Virus record (IMG/VR): IMGVR_UViG_3300046460_000403
Span: 1 to 38,104 of that record
Reading direction: 5' to 3' (one strand)
Origin: a virus
Length of the DNA stretch: 38,104 bases
The translations under genes and the position numbers were made by a program. The notes beneath the pieces were generated by a model, which ran no database searches, had not been told where the DNA came from, and worked only from the letters and a program-made list of their open reading frames with translations. Shown piece after piece: positions 28,776 to 37,856 of this stretch; within the stretch, counting starts at the first letter, position 1; each line of letters starts with the position of its first letter.

Positions 28776-29741
28776 ATGAGCGCCGTCACTGCGCAACAAA
28801 TCCGCGCGGCCGCGAAAGGCCCCGTGAATGCTGGCAACCTGAATTCCGTCCTCGTCTCGCTCGATCGCTACGGCGATATGTTCGGCCTCGATCAGCTGCA
28901 CCGCCTGGTGCAGTATGTTGCGCAGCTGATGCACGAAAGCGGCGATTTTCGCTATGACCGCGAGATCTGGGGACCGACGCCGGCGCAGAAGAAATATGAT
29001 ACCCGCACCGATCTTGGCAACACGCCGGCAGTCGACGGCGACGGCAAGAAGAATGCCGGACGCGGGCCGATCCAGCTAACCGGCGGCGCCAACATCAAGG
29101 CCTTTTACGACTGGTGCGTTGACCGGGGGCTAAACCCGCCCGACTTCGTCGCCAATCCTGACCTGATCAACACCGATCCATGGGAAGGCCTGTCGGCGTT
29201 GTTCTATTGGGATACGCACAATCTCAATCGCCTCGCCGACCAGGGCGACATCGAGACGATCACCAAGAAGATCAACGGCGGCATGAACGGCTTTGCCGAT
29301 CGCGTCGAACATCTGGCGCGGCTGTCGCTGGTGGTGCTCGGCCATGCGCCGGATGCGCTCAAGAAGTTTCAGGCGAGCGTCGGACTTGATGTCGATGGAG
29401 ATCCGGGGCCGAAGACGCGCTCGGCGCTGCATAAGGCGCTGCTTGCGCTTGACGGTGTGTCGACGAAGGCCGCCGGCATCATGTCGGCGCCGGTCGTTGA
29501 TGAAAAGCAGGTCGTGCCGCACGCCGTCGAAACGCAGGTGAAGAAAAAGTTCAATGTCCTTGCTTGGGTGGGGAGCCTGTTTTCCGGCGGCGGCTTCGGT
29601 CTTGCGGCTCTTGCCGGCTTCGATTGGCGGGCGCTCGCTGTCCTCGTCATCGCTGTCCTCGTCGTCGGCGGTGGCGGCTTGCTGCTTCGCTTCTGGATCA
29701 TCGCGGCCATCAAGGACATTCGCGCGGCGGTGGAGAGCTGA
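28776..29741 (+). CDS. GH19-type endolysin with C-terminal membrane segments
   Basis: This 321-aa protein is a peptidoglycan-degrading endolysin. The N-terminal domain (about residues 1-180) has the GH19 chitinase/lysozyme pattern: AQLMHESGDF (catalytic candidate E54) and AGRGPIQLTGGANIKAF (about 94-111). A short peptidoglycan-binding repeat (FQASVGLDVDGDPGPKTRSA) follows. Two hydrophobic segments near the end (about 258-280 and 285-308) would anchor it in the membrane, which is unusual for a soluble endolysin but seen in some rhizobial phage lysins. It is followed after one base by the spanin gene. Confidence 0.92.
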   Translation: MSAVTAQQIRAAAKGPVNAGNLNSVLVSLDRYGDMFGLDQLHRLVQYVAQLMHESGDFRYDREIWGPTPAQKKYDTRTDLGNTPAVDGDGKKNAGRGPIQLTGGANIKAFYDWCVDRGLNPPDFVANPDLINTDPWEGLSALFYWDTHNLNRLADQGDIETITKKINGGMNGFADRVEHLARLSLVVLGHAPDALKKFQASVGLDVDGDPGPKTRSALHKALLALDGVSTKAAGIMSAPVVDEKQVVPHAVETQVKKKFNVLAWVGSLFSGGGFGLAALAGFDWRALAVLVIAVLVVGGGGLLLRFWIIAAIKDIRAAVES

Positions 29742-30179: not shown

Positions 30180-31415
30180 CTATTTAGTTCTATTGGAGAT
30201 ATGTTTGTAAAGCACCGCCATAACCGCCGACTGCGCCAACCACTCGTTTCCAGGAATGTGTGAAAGAGCAGTTATTCCATTCGTGGCCGCCACAAGAATC
30301 GCTACAACAACGATATCCTTCAACGCTCCTCGGAGGTCGATCGTGACTTCAGATGCGAATTTCAAAAACATTGGTTTCCGGCTAAATCGAAACGCCGCGA
30401 CCAAGAGATTCGCGAGTGTCCGACCAAGGGCGAGTATTTTCTGGCCAGGCACCTTTGCGTTAGCCGTCACCCAATTCACTGTTTGTCGCAATGCGTTCGG
30501 AACAGAGGAGTCTATTGATTCCGGGAGTTCATCAAGCGTTTCAGCCAGACCGAGCGCCGTTTCACAAAGGGTAGCAACGTCTTCCGCTGTTGCGCGGGTC
30601 TCTGAAGCGTTCTCGTTGTATTGGCGCCACTCTGGAAACTGAGAGACAAAATCCGCTACGCTTCGCCAATGCCTCACCAAGCCGGCATGAAGGGTATCGG
30701 TTATTTCACCGTCGGAACCTTGAAGCACTTCACCCAGACTAAGATTGAAAATGGCAAGTTGAATGACGTTATTGGGCGATACCAGGCGAGCGTGAACCTG
30801 TTGAAACGCTTCTTCAACATAGGGCCAGTTCGATAGCCTTCGATCTCGAAGAAGCATTTCACCTTGGGCTAAAAGGGCTTCCCGAGCGGCAGTGATGTTG
30901 TCGGCGTCAGCGTCAAGGAAGTTGGCAGGCTGGTCAGCTACAACCAATGTGGAGTTGCGCAATTCAAACTGGTACGGAGCGATGTTTTGAGGAGGAAGTT
31001 GCTGGATTGCCTGTTCGACCGCAATATTTGCAGCGGACTGCTCAGGAGTAATTTGCGCTCGGATCGCCACGAGATCACGCGCGAACTCGACGGCTCTTTG
31101 TAGGGCATCTTGAACTGTTCCCCCGTCTGGTAGGGACAGAGCTTCTTTTGCCATTGTGTCGAGGACAATCGGCTCGGCATACAGTTGACCGTTTCGGATC
31201 ATCATTTTCCCGAGTACGTTCTCCAGCGCCTCCGCTCGCAATTGGACAAAAGTTGGGTCTTTTATGTGGTTGTGAATGCGGTCGCCAATTGATTGAGCGG
31301 AGGTAGTGACTAAAAAGTTGTCCGGTATACGCCCGGTTCTCCTCAAGAAGGCGTCTACGACTGACAGAGTGCCTTGGATTTTTGTCAACAAAGCATGTTC
31401 TGTCACGTCATCCAT
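30180..31415 (-). CDS. 411-aa protein with C-terminal membrane anchor
   Basis: I do not recognise this protein. It begins MDDVTEHALLTKIQGTLSVV and is mostly helical and acidic, with a long central helical region (TVQDALQRAVEFARDLVAIR, then TPEQSAANIAVEQAIQQLP). The end carries membrane spans (LKDIVVVAILVAATNGITAL, about residues 363-382, and EWLAQSAVMAVLYKH, about 391-405), so it is C-terminally anchored. GGAG lies about 9 bases before the ATG at 31415. An in-frame TTG at 31502 adds a less plausible start. It lies on the strand opposite the lysis genes, separated by 22 bases, typical of a lysogenic cargo gene. A role in defence or exclusion is possible but not shown. Confidence 0.7.
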   Translation of the reverse strand: MDDVTEHALLTKIQGTLSVVDAFLRRTGRIPDNFLVTTSAQSIGDRIHNHIKDPTFVQLRAEALENVLGKMMIRNGQLYAEPIVLDTMAKEALSLPDGGTVQDALQRAVEFARDLVAIRAQITPEQSAANIAVEQAIQQLPPQNIAPYQFELRNSTLVVADQPANFLDADADNITAAREALLAQGEMLLRDRRLSNWPYVEEAFQQVHARLVSPNNVIQLAIFNLSLGEVLQGSDGEITDTLHAGLVRHWRSVADFVSQFPEWRQYNENASETRATAEDVATLCETALGLAETLDELPESIDSSVPNALRQTVNWVTANAKVPGQKILALGRTLANLLVAAFRFSRKPMFLKFASEVTIDLRGALKDIVVVAILVAATNGITALSHIPGNEWLAQSAVMAVLYKHISNRTK

Positions 31416-31733
31416 TTGAATTGCTCCGGAGGCGCCCCAAGGACTGGCCAACTCTGCTTTCGCAGAACACCTATTTTTGCTTGCGCAAGATTGTAAATGC
31501 AATTGCTATAGCGGCTTTTGATCTAGAAGCAAACGAGCGGACAAAACCCCTCCATCACAACCATGGCTCGCGATCTGTGGCCGCATCGCGGTCGGTCTAT
31601 GCCATGCACTTCGGCCTGAATGGGTTTGATCAGGCCTGGCGACAATTCGGACACGACACACCTCACTCGATATTGAACGGCGATTCAACTGCGGGCGAGG
31701 CAATTCGGTCCGAAGGCAGGCAGGGAATAGGGA
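31416..31733. other. Divergent intergenic region, no gene seen
   Basis: These 318 bases lie between two divergent cargo genes and hold no supported coding frame. They must contain promoters for both sides, but no clear pair of -35 and -10 boxes stands out. Ribosome sites for both genes lie at the edges. Confidence 0.4.
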
Positions 31734-32371: not shown

Positions 32372-32578
32372 CTAGAACCTGATTTCAGGGTCGACTAGCA
32401 GGCCGGGATGTAGAGGAATTTCCGGAATAATCGCTTTAGCAAAACATTCCTTATCAGCAAAAAAATTTTGCCGCTCGTCCTCCATCTCGGCGGTGTAGGC
32501 TGAAATATAAACGGCCTCATCAAAAAGAACCTGTGTTCCGCAAAAGCAGCATTTGACGTACTCAGGGTGTCCACCCAT
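32372..32578 (-). CDS. Zinc-ribbon-like candidate immunity protein
   Basis: This 68-aa acidic protein begins [19 protein letters not shown]. The C-x2-C pair in CCFC and the later ECF suggest a metal-binding ribbon. It begins inside the last 17 bases of the toxin-like gene on the same strand, so the two are coupled and must be cotranscribed. Small zinc-ribbon proteins of this build sit next to polymorphic toxins in many genomes and act as immunity proteins. Here that role is inferred from size, position and motif; the 209 bases downstream to 32163 hold no supported gene. Confidence 0.65.
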
Positions 32579-33362
32579 AGTTTTTTCCTAGTCTATCTAG
32601 CGATTTTTGTGAGAGATTGGAAAACGTTGTTATTATTCCACGATCTCCGGAAACTACAACATCGAATTTTCCAGCGGTATTCTGCATCACGTGTACTGAC
32701 GCGCCATCGGCCTGCTTCATCAGTTTTCCGCCTTGCTGTACTGTTCGTACAGCGTCTTGCGTCAGAACGCCCCCGCGTGTGGCACCGGCTCCAGCGATGC
32801 GTTCTGCCCCATGAACAGTTGTTTGTAAGGTTACACTACCTTGCTCTGACACGACCGCAGCGGCGGCACTATCTGTTACGGGGGCCGCCTTTCCAATTGC
32901 GCTGGCAACTGTCGCTCCTCTTAGGAGGCCTAAGGATGCAGATCCTAGAACCTCCCAACCATCCATGATCGCAAGCTGCAGGGTAGTTTTGCCAATCCGC
33001 TCGCGCTCGTCTCTAGCCATCCGTTCATATGTGCTAACTAGATTTTGAGGATCGCCAAGATCACGCTGTTCTTTTGCCATGCGGTCGAAATCGGAGGCAT
33101 TTCTGTCGTGAGTTTCGTCGCGGTCTTTCGGTGAGGAGAACAAATCTCCGAGAGTAAGATGCCCGTTTGGATCGCTTTTGTTGATCGGATCGTTGTCTGA
33201 GTAGGCATACCGGTTGGTTCCGACGCCGGGAATAATCGGATCCATGGTGTCCGGTGAAATGAATCTGGCATTAGCCACCGATCCGAACGAGACCGTGACG
33301 ATGCTGAAAACAAGCAGCAGACCAAGAACGCGGGCAGTGAACCCCTGCGACAGCGACTTCAT
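32562..33362 (-). CDS. Compact secreted RHS-derived toxin-like protein
   Basis: This 266-aa protein has a classic signal peptide (residues 1 to about 32: charged start, [15 protein letters not shown] core, ANA cleavage site), followed directly by one terminal RHS-core unit ([16 protein letters not shown], then [19 protein letters not shown], about 33-67). In full RHS proteins this piece marks the junction between the RHS shell and the variable toxin. The following 200 residues would be the toxin part. The final domain ([19 protein letters not shown]... [17 protein letters not shown]) has a pattern like DUF4258/BECR-fold RNase toxins. GGGGG lies about 10 bases before the ATG. The gene overlaps the candidate immunity gene. 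The RHS motif is strong; the toxin class is inference. Confidence 0.75.
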
Positions 33363-33771: not shown

Positions 33772-34551
33772 CTACCATTTGGGCAAGATGAGTTTGTTGA
33801 TTACCCCGCCGTATGAAGGGGTCGGATCATTGGCGTCGCCGTTCTGTATGGAGAGTTGGTCCGGCGCAATCTGGACAACGATAGGCGACATCATTTCACT
33901 ATAGGTTAGCTGCTGGGCCTCGGTCCGTAGTCCATTATATTCCACAGAGAAATAGAACAAGTCACCGTCATTCCCGCCTTCGAATTGAAACTGAATTGTT
34001 CCGAATGGCCGCACATTGTTTCTCTGCCGGAAATCTTGTCCCGTTCGCCTATTGGTCATTGCCACGGTGACAAGATTTTCGTCTGAGGTGGTATTAACGA
34101 CCCTTATGGCAATAACGCCAGCTTCAGCCAGCTGAATAGGCGCTCCACCCGCCTGCCATAACAACCCTCCGTGCGTATCCCACGCGATGTCGCTCTTCGC
34201 AGGTGCACCTGTTACCGGCTGTTTATATGGGGTGACGGTCATCACTGCAGCTATGATGCCGAGACCTACTACGAAAGATTGCTTTCGGTCTGTTGGCTGA
34301 AATACAAAACATAACGCTGCGGCCAAAAGCACTAAAAGACATAGAATCCACAACGGTGCGATCGGAACGCCTATTTGCCGAGCTGACAGCGATGTTAGTT
34401 TGGATACTGCAGACGCGTCTTCCTTCTGTACCACGTCCGCGACAGCCGCAATGAATCCACCTATTGCAGCACAAATGTATATTGTTGCCGTCCGTCCACT
34501 TTCTGATAGGTAATTTCCGCTTACGTTTGCTGGTGGAATAGCTCTCGGCAT
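33772..34551 (-). CDS. Membrane protein with beta-rich soluble domain
   Basis: This 259-aa protein has three hydrophobic segments near the N-terminus: ATIYICAAIGGFIAAVADVV, LWILCLLVLLAAALCFVF and SFVVGLGIIAAVMTV (about residues 22-105). A soluble, beta-rich C-terminal part of about 150 aa follows (VIAIRVVNTTSDENLVTVAM, then FGTIQFQFEGGNDGDLFYF). No enzyme motif is seen and no family is recognised. GGAGG lies about 7 bases before the ATG, and a good promoter is found at 34607-34635. It is cargo on the minus strand, likely expressed in the lysogen. Confidence 0.75.
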   Translation of the reverse strand: MPRAIPPANVSGNYLSESGRTATIYICAAIGGFIAAVADVVQKEDASAVSKLTSLSARQIGVPIAPLWILCLLVLLAAALCFVFQPTDRKQSFVVGLGIIAAVMTVTPYKQPVTGAPAKSDIAWDTHGGLLWQAGGAPIQLAEAGVIAIRVVNTTSDENLVTVAMTNRRTGQDFRQRNNVRPFGTIQFQFEGGNDGDLFYFSVEYNGLRTEAQQLTYSEMMSPIVVQIAPDQLSIQNGDANDPTPSYGGVINKLILPKW

Positions 34552-35014: not shown

Positions 35015-35869
35015 ATGCAAGACAATATCAGACCAATAGCCCCGGTGAGCCTCGCCGGCCTCACACCGCAAGCACCAGAGACTGGCATTCCGATCTGCGA
35101 GGTTGTCGATCCAACCTCCTTGTATGTTGATCCTGCGTATCAAAGGAACGTCAGCGAAAAAGGCATGCGTCAAATCCGACGCATCATTGAAGGCTTCGAC
35201 TGGGCAAAGTTCAAGCCACCGATTTGCGCTTATGCGGAATGCGAGGGTAGGACGATTTTGAAGGTGCTCGATGGGCAACACACTGCAATTGCCGCTGCTT
35301 CCAATCCGCACGTGCGTTCAATCCCCATCATGATCGTAGAAGCCGAGGATACGGTTGCCCAGGCAAAAGCATTCATAGGGCAGAATACCGATCGCCTTGG
35401 CGTCACTACCTTGCAGCTCCACCAGGCAGCACTCGCAGCCGCAGATGAAGATGCGCAGACGCTCGAATTGGTTTGCTCGCGGGCAAACATCAAGATTTTA
35501 AAGACGACGAATGCTTACACCGGCACCGGCTCCCGTCAAACGATAGCAATAAAGCAGATCGAAGCTTTGGTCGGCAGGCGAGGGCCCAAACTTGCTCGCG
35601 AAATACTTGACGTCTTGGCCAACGCCGAGAGAGGTCCGTTGACGGCTCCTCAGATCAAAGCCGTCGAACTGCTGATGACTGACCCGGAGTACGCGGATCT
35701 CATCACGCCGGAAGACCTAACCAACGCAATTGTCGATCTCCTGTTCACCGCGGAGGATGAGGCGAAGATATTTGCCGCTACTCACAAGGTCGCATTCTGG
35801 AAAGCGCTTGCGATTAGCTGGTTCAGGAAATGTAAGAAACGGAAACATCCGATCGCTAAGGCGGCGTGA
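35015..35869 (+). CDS. ParB/sulfiredoxin-fold protein, DUF6551-like
   Basis: This 284-aa protein has a ParB N-terminal-like domain (about residues 22-125). IPICEVVDPTSLYVDPAYQR corresponds to the opening strands. EKGMRQIRRIIEGFDWAKF and LKVLDGQHTAIAA then match the R-x-I and DGQHR-like motif of the fold, in which the usual final Arg is replaced by Thr (GQHT). The rest is helical (VTTLQLHQAALAAADEDAQT) with a basic end. DUF6551 proteins with this layout occur in many rhizobial phages and plasmids. The role could be DNA binding or nucleotide-dependent regulation. GGGA lies about 7 bases before the ATG. Confidence 0.75.
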   Translation: MQDNIRPIAPVSLAGLTPQAPETGIPICEVVDPTSLYVDPAYQRNVSEKGMRQIRRIIEGFDWAKFKPPICAYAECEGRTILKVLDGQHTAIAAASNPHVRSIPIMIVEAEDTVAQAKAFIGQNTDRLGVTTLQLHQAALAAADEDAQTLELVCSRANIKILKTTNAYTGTGSRQTIAIKQIEALVGRRGPKLAREILDVLANAERGPLTAPQIKAVELLMTDPEYADLITPEDLTNAIVDLLFTAEDEAKIFAATHKVAFWKALAISWFRKCKKRKHPIAKAA

Positions 35870-37028: not shown

Positions 37029-37856
37029 ATGCCGAATGTATCAGTTCAGGCCGCTGGCGAAGCTATGCCTACCCGTCGCCGCCTTCTTATGGGCCTTGCG
37101 TCCGCCTCTGCGGCGGCTGCAACGCTCGCCATTCCAGGCACTGCAAAATCAAATCAGGTTGAGACCGTTGCGACCGTTCCGGAAAACCCCGAGCTGCTGC
37201 GTTTGGCCGACGCGTTTCAGATCGCCTTGCAGAAATACAAGGATGCTCAGACGACAATCCGCGAAATCAGGGGAGCTTGGGAACATCGTTGGCCGCTCGC
37301 GCCTGACACAATCAGCACGATAGTAACCGACGCCAAAGCCCATCCTCGCTCTCGTGAGGTTGATCTGATGGGGAGCAACCTCGTTCGGCCGGGCGAAACA
37401 TATGCCCGCGAAATGGCAGATGATTGGTATGTCAATTATTCCCTCAAACAAGCGCGAAGGGCTTTGAATACCAAGAAAATGGCGACGGCTGGAAAGAGCG
37501 CGGGACGTACCAAGGAGCAATGGGAAGCTATCCTTGCCGAATTTGCACCATGCGCCCGCGATCTTGATGCCTATGAGGCAAAGTGTAAGCGGATCCACGC
37601 TTTATCCGGCATCAATGAGGCAAAGGCAGCGCGCGAAGTGGCCGGAGACCAGCTCGTTGCTATAGCGCAGGCGGTAATGCTCGAACCTGACCGAACGATG
37701 GCAGGCGTTCTTATCAAGGCTGATGTCGTGATGATGGTCCAGATCGACAACGCGCTGTTATACAAATCCATGTTCCCTAAAGAAGGCGTGCAGCTTTGGG
37801 GATTCAGTCTGGCAGCCTCGATCATTCGCCTTGCCGAAACCGGAGGTGCAGCATGA
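37029..37856 (+). CDS. Hypothetical exported-looking protein, Tat-type start
   Basis: This 275-aa protein has an N-terminal segment with a twin-arginine motif (PTRRRLLMG, about residues 14-22), a hydrophobic alanine-rich stretch and a possible cleavage site (LAIPGTAKS), so export is plausible. The rest is helical, with no recognised domain (ELLRLADAFQIALQKYKDAQ, then AREVAGDQLVAIAQAVML near the end). Rhizobial prophages often carry genes of this build. GGAGAG lies about 8 bases before the ATG. It is the first gene of a plus-strand operon divergent from the repressor and is coupled to the next gene by ATGA. The function is unknown. Confidence 0.7.
   Translation: MPNVSVQAAGEAMPTRRRLLMGLASASAAAATLAIPGTAKSNQVETVATVPENPELLRLADAFQIALQKYKDAQTTIREIRGAWEHRWPLAPDTISTIVTDAKAHPRSREVDLMGSNLVRPGETYAREMADDWYVNYSLKQARRALNTKKMATAGKSAGRTKEQWEAILAEFAPCARDLDAYEAKCKRIHALSGINEAKAAREVAGDQLVAIAQAVMLEPDRTMAGVLIKADVVMMVQIDNALLYKSMFPKEGVQLWGFSLAASIIRLAETGGAA

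Follow-up and report, generated by a model that had tools for sequence, protein, structure and literature searches.

The viral DNA analysed here, called the window throughout, is the 38,104-nucleotide stretch of the IMG/VR record IMGVR_UViG_3300046460_000403. On its minus strand it carries two adjoining open reading frames (ORFs), one encoding a protein of 266 residues (32562-33362) and the other a protein of 68 residues (32372-32578), the start of which lies inside the first gene, giving an overlap of 17 bases. Both ORFs are as described in an earlier sequence-only reading of this DNA, which saw in them a compact secreted toxin, made of a signal peptide and the tip of an Rhs protein, with a candidate immunity gene behind it. 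Judged by sequence comparison, this tip is not a one-off and belongs to a Rhizobiales family of separately encoded Rhs tips that bear their own signal peptide.

The 266-residue protein begins with MKSLSQGF and opens with a signal peptide (residues 1-32; 33267-33362, minus strand), read from the sequence, that ends in an AxA motif (V-A-N-A) right before the Rhs core. Next come the terminal piece of that core, the C-terminal plug piece (residues 33-68; 33159-33266, minus strand), and about 200 variable residues, of which the first part is a pre-toxin linker (residues 69-165; 32868-33158, minus strand). The NCBIfam model Rhs_assc_core (TIGR03696) matches residues 32-68 with its C-terminal half (model positions 43-76 of 76; E=1.8e-7), at a score of 31.6 bits that lies 0.9 below the cut-off of 32.5; several sister tips exceed this cut-off. 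Only the last ~36 residues of the core are present in the tip, and there is no long Rhs-repeat shell array in the same 266-residue protein. Two DP motifs are retained, with Asp38 and Asp64 both invariant in an alignment of 13 tips, and nearly all of the 22 invariant columns in this alignment fall within RFISPD...SDxNGH, the plug piece being the most conserved part of the protein. Over residues 1-68, the nonsynonymous divergence (dN) from seven relatives is ~0.17-0.22 with synonymous sites saturated, and the layout of signal peptide plus tip is under strong purifying selection. The direct joining of signal peptide to terminal RHS unit (ANA followed by RFISPD), as first noticed from the sequence alone, is kept in independent genomes and in complete plasmids. 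On these grounds, together with the dN and synonymous-site data, we rejected the idea that the junction arose by chance or by an assembly break in a full-length rhs gene, the latter being one of the outcomes that the earlier reading had named as a refutation. The linker is 41% identical to that of a fused Rhs protein from Sinorhizobium (L011; E=6e-14) and 44-49% identical to those of other signal-peptide tips.

The remaining ~100 residues form the C-terminal toxin candidate (residues 166-266; 32565-32867, minus strand). They have no match in Pfam, NCBIfam, PHROG or PDB sequences and no homologue in plasmids or in 388 genomes across the phylum, and a degenerate DNA pattern for the end of the region had no match in viral contigs. 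Five weak matches were obtained in 397 genomes of the order, and only one of them, the C-terminus of an Rhs protein at locus L135 (26%, E=7e-4), is a plausible relative, with the motif HGxxR..G.GAxRxG in common. A Pfam match to MelC1 (E=0.0016, below the cut-off) was dismissed as low-complexity. The region is predicted to fold as a helix, three strands and a helix at low confidence, with a predicted local distance difference test (pLDDT) of about 52 (52.5 for the C-terminus alone, 51.9 for the full protein with nine sequences); none of the Foldseek matches of these models is significant, and the models are too poor for assigning a fold. The last 90 residues had been likened by eye to an RNase of the DUF4258/BECR type, where the BECR fold is a helix followed by a four-stranded meander. 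PF14076 (DUF4258) has no match in the window at E<=10, and with such models we do not uphold this assignment; an RNase identity is possible.

Relatives of the tip were found at about two dozen Rhizobiales loci, on plasmids as well as chromosomes. In a search of plasmid proteins, the rhizobial relatives matched residues 1-73, signal peptide included, with C-termini that differ, and a genome scan added eight further loci; within one family, 8 of 298 genomes have signal-peptide tips. A profile of the conserved stretch matches these tips from positions 1-16, in small ORFs, and the fused full-length Rhs proteins at 30-69, in ORFs that often exceed 2000 residues. Sister tips end in AHH (L007), HNH (L112), TNT (L132) and alpha/beta hydrolase (L133) domains, all over the Pfam cut-offs, and in a GIY-YIG domain (L108) just below it. 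This GIY-YIG C-terminus is also that of the fused Rhs protein L013, and C-termini or linkers are likewise common to tips and fused full-length proteins in the pairs L130/L113 and window/L011. Two further loci, L116 (genome G074) and L119 (G201), are classical orphan Rhs tips that lack a signal peptide and keep upstream Rhs-repeat homology; in these two genomes several tips lie only a few kb apart. One bacterial family thus has orphan tips of both kinds, with and without a signal peptide.

Complete loci (in Neorhizobium, R. lentis, R. leguminosarum and others) place the tip in an order in which a shell with TcdB-mid, FG-GAP and RHS repeats is followed by a secreted transglutaminase-like protein (Transglut_core2, E=2e-12), the signal-peptide tip and an immunity candidate. 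Most signal-peptide tips come after a secreted transglutaminase-like gene. All nine readable shells upstream of tips end inside the terminal core and have no toxin of their own: seven end in ...YLNARY[YM][DN]P..GR[FY][VIL]P plus a short tail and two stop slightly later, while fused relatives continue through as ...GRFISPDDWDPT..GVGTNRY...DPNGH and on into the toxin. The stop of the shell and the start of the mature tip therefore coincide. The C-terminal plug inside the barrel of Photorhabdus Rhs1 is formed by this end of the core and bears the toxin-cutting aspartate (PMC8636562). The proposal of a self-sufficient minimal toxin "without the RHS shell" is not supported, as the tips of complete loci are separately encoded ends of TcdB-type Rhs shells; what we keep is a candidate for a secreted Rhs-tip toxin, paired with a candidate for its immunity protein, on a prophage.

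The transglutaminase gene is found in 7 of 8 tip genomes versus 2 of 290 others (nominal p=7e-12, the genomes being related), and 15 transglutaminase-like proteins, all with secretion-type N-termini, have in common an invariant Cys, His and Glu of the active-site type. Type II secretion genes adjoin L140/L010, L004, L145, L151/L153 and L155. A type II cluster of one lineage lies beside Rhs/TcdB shells or transglutaminase-like genes in Rhizobiaceae (L140, L145, L153, L155), and its GspD lineage is present in 13 of 25 genomes with Rhs cores versus none of 30 without. Solitary tips occur in seven genomes, six of which also have a transglutaminase plus tip unit elsewhere. The window, with no transglutaminase-like gene directly upstream of its tip, fits this recurrent sub-type.

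The 68-residue ORF is preceded by AGGA (32586-32589, minus strand), which by its sequence resembles a ribosome-binding site, 7 bases before the ATG. Its product has no signal peptide that we could see and belongs to no Pfam, NCBIfam or PHROG family; the cysteines comprise one CxxC (Cys10, Cys13), Cys11 and a single later Cys45. A zinc ribbon has two pairs of Cys/His ligands, and with one CxxC and no family match we drop this label, which the protein had been given from the sequence alone. Its reading as an immunity protein comes from a rule of the family. In 20 of 24 signal-peptide tips, a same-strand ORF starts between -17 and +20 bases relative to the stop, with an ATGA overlap in ten (the count leaves out two contig-edge fragments of fused proteins), and toxin and downstream gene are co-inherited, being 78% and 63% alike, respectively, between L003 and L106, and 53% and 48% between L010 and L107. 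Both locus pairs with a common C-terminus also have a common downstream gene, and no other downstream genes are alike. Because of these translationally coupled ORFs and co-inherited pairs, we take the 68-residue protein as an immunity candidate and its gene as the likely antidote gene. Solitary cassettes of signal-peptide tip and immunity gene at L142 and L003 (78%/63% alike) lie at different chromosomal places in two genomes, and therefore the cassette itself moves.

Signal-peptide tips are also found on other phages. Searching viral contigs with a transglutaminase profile returned seven IMG/VR contigs (L164-L170), from phages unrelated to that of the window. In all seven, a short signal-peptide tip lies directly downstream of the transglutaminase gene, usually joined to it by ATGA, and is followed by a further small ORF, so that the three form a translationally coupled unit; in six of them terminase, virion, primase or integrase genes lie alongside. 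The tips carry a canonical DPIG...DPLGL plug and differing C-termini, among them NlpC/P60 (L168, over the Pfam cut-off), HExxHxxGxxH metalloprotease-like, hydrolase-like and glycine-zipper-like ones. By their sequences, several of these toxins are likely to act in the periplasm, and several of the putative immunity proteins begin with an N-terminus of the secretion or membrane type. Counting the window, at least eight viral records thus have such tips, the window being the only one found with this rhizobial subtype.

As had been supposed, the cassette lies inside a prophage. The window, a linear virus record, encodes an RNase H and, to the left of the cassette, an integrase (1-1155), a terminase, a major head protein and an endolysin; its phage is temperate and has a probable rhizobial host. 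An endolysin/chitinase-like gene (28776-29741, plus strand; PHROG 14712, E=5e-124) lies to the left of the cassette, the immediate left neighbour is a DUF1515-like phage gene (31734-32162, plus strand; PF07439, 22.4 bits vs a cut-off of 22.2), and to the right there is a ParB-like gene (35015-35869, plus strand) that is 69-86% identical in nine other viral contigs. In those contigs the ParB-like gene sits 1-7 kb from an end; to its left, three have the endolysin at 6-9 kb and two more have other genes of the window phage. Among 151 genomes of the family, just 6 have the ParB-like gene, which is therefore not a host core gene. Since the cassette lies between DUF1515-like and ParB-like genes of related prophages, it is a moron inside the prophage. 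No close relatives of the whole 266-residue protein or of the 68-residue protein were found in viral contigs, and the phage collection contained no DNA related to the right-hand 24 kb. Three other ORFs of the region deserve mention. Between the endolysin and DUF1515 genes and opposite to its neighbours, a 440-residue ORF with a hydrophobic C-terminal part (30180-31502, minus strand) has no homologue in plasmids or related prophages and is possibly another moron. Directly upstream of the cassette, on the same strand, a membrane-type protein of 259 residues (33772-34551) has no family above cut-off and no relative in related prophages. Near the right end, a 275-residue ORF (37029-37856, plus strand) has an N-terminus like those of twin-arginine translocation (Tat) substrates (RRRLLMGLASASAAAATLAIPGTA) and no Pfam match.

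We lean towards reading the two ORFs as a polymorphic toxin-immunity cassette that a temperate phage carries as a moron and whose tip would be exported by Sec and would complete a host-supplied shell together with a transglutaminase-like helper. The tip would enter the periplasm of the lysogen with RFISPD as its new N-terminus and would there complete the C-terminal plug of a toxin-less TcdB-type Rhs shell from the host, which stops right after ...YYDPAFGRF; this trans-assembly is a step that we infer from the sequences. The secreted transglutaminase-like protein may assist it by joining, anchoring or processing, and the loaded shell might leave via the linked type II system or at lysis. The plug aspartates could then free the toxin by self-cleavage to act on related cells, while the small protein would shield the lysogen, so that, of the whole weapon, the phage would contribute just an exchangeable warhead with the matching antidote. 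More tentatively, the wider family may amount to a split Rhs weapon loaded in trans, in which a dedicated transglutaminase-like enzyme attaches the separately exported tips, or helps to attach them, to a toxin-less TcdB/Rhs shell in the periplasm, with a dedicated type II exit, and in which phages, plasmids and solitary chromosomal cassettes supply competing warhead-antidote pairs to one shared machine.

Several observations weigh against the proposed completion of a host shell, and the main doubt is the need for a shell itself, which may not be needed. The window has neither a shell nor a transglutaminase-like gene (PF13369 has no match in it), and no homologue of the 68-residue protein was found in the places searched, viral contigs among them. 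Genome G053 has a tip and no transglutaminase match, rhizobial units L141, L143 and L146 have no shell or type II genes nearby, and no shell lies within the 5-10 kb of flanking sequence fetched for the viral transglutaminase plus tip loci. As both these viral flanks and several rhizobial units lack one, the shell may be dispensable. Such flanks and units would suit a stand-alone toxin, exported by Sec with or without a transglutaminase-like partner, stored in the periplasm or leaving it and freed by phage lysis like a colicin, with the Rhs piece as a recognition or self-cleavage tag. The viral tips that look periplasm-active, such as the NlpC/P60 tip, and the secretion- or membrane-type N-termini of putative immunity proteins point the same way. 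We nevertheless regard a stand-alone toxin as rather unlikely, given that the nine shells upstream of tips all lack a toxin and end at the tip start, and that the plug piece is conserved above the rest of the protein, which a mere export tag would not need.

The same bacterial family has both orphan cassettes and modules exchanged with fused Rhs proteins, as would also be expected of a silent reservoir that recombines into full-length rhs, as in enterobacterial orphan rhs. This seems very improbable for the window, because classical orphans (L116, L119) keep the upstream Rhs-repeat homology and have no signal peptide, while window-type tips have a conserved signal peptide instead and are under strong purifying selection. 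That the tip is a host gene flanking the prophage, or comes from a full-length rhs that was broken or misassembled, is hardly to be credited, even if this tip subtype was found in no further viral contig and the record is linear and a fragment: the host gene was rejected on the position of the cassette between endolysin/DUF1515 and ParB-like genes, in the same order as in related prophages, and on the sporadic presence of the ParB-like gene in genomes, and the intact layout of signal peptide plus tip is that of a conserved family.

Rhs toxins, orphan cassettes and Tc toxins are already known. The C component of a Tc toxin consists of many Rhs repeats and a toxin. Tip loci resemble Tc toxins, with their TcB-TcC cage, in having TcdB-mid/FG-GAP/RHS shells and a toxin split across more than one polypeptide. 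Unlike in Tc toxins, only the last ~36 core residues lie on the tip protein, which has no Rhs repeats with which a separate C protein would close the B-C cage, and complete loci add a transglutaminase-like gene and immunity candidates. Rhs polymorphic toxins (T6SS-linked, that is, linked to type VI secretion systems, and TcdB/TcaC-type; PMC3482391, PMC8636562) share with the tip the two-DP terminal core, the hypervariable C-terminus and the adjacent immunity-type gene, and linker and toxin modules are common to tips and fused Rhs proteins; in the window family, however, the tip is made as a protein apart, with a signal peptide for its export, and the shell is separate and toxin-less, or absent nearby. 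In some described Rhs toxins (PMC3482391), an inactive transglutaminase domain at the N-terminus is likewise linked to a signal peptide, but there the domain is fused to the toxin and has lost its catalytic residues, whereas in tip loci it is a separate gene with invariant Cys, His and Glu. Enterobacterial orphan rhs-CT/immunity cassettes (PMC3967940, PMC7043789) are likewise short toxin-immunity cassettes without a delivery part, apart from or beside full-length rhs; the tips differ in having a conserved signal peptide and in travelling with a transglutaminase-like gene and on phages. The YD-repeat toxins of APSE phages are, like the tip, phage-borne Rhs toxin genes, 48-53% over the core and its only relatives in the phage collection, but these genes are annotated as YD-repeat/RHS-repeat toxins and not as a minimal signal-peptide tip.

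In the openly licensed literature searched, we found no name for the tip family and no description of a split, type II-linked or transglutaminase-linked Rhs system, nor of signal-peptide tips that recur, are encoded separately from a shell lacking a toxin, are paired with a transglutaminase-like gene and linked to type II secretion, and are carried by phages. For this gene and for the type II cluster, both found with Rhs genes in Rhizobiaceae, the present reading also proposes roles that can be tested. In the usual view, a polymorphic toxin acquires a new warhead when the 3' end of its single large gene recombines. In the tip family, the warhead is a separate, exported and exchangeable protein, and phages carry the tip together with its antidote, which suggests that phages carry interchangeable warheads for a bacterial weapon. 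If this is true, a prophage could re-arm its host without recombination, and lysogeny would be directly tied to competition between bacteria.
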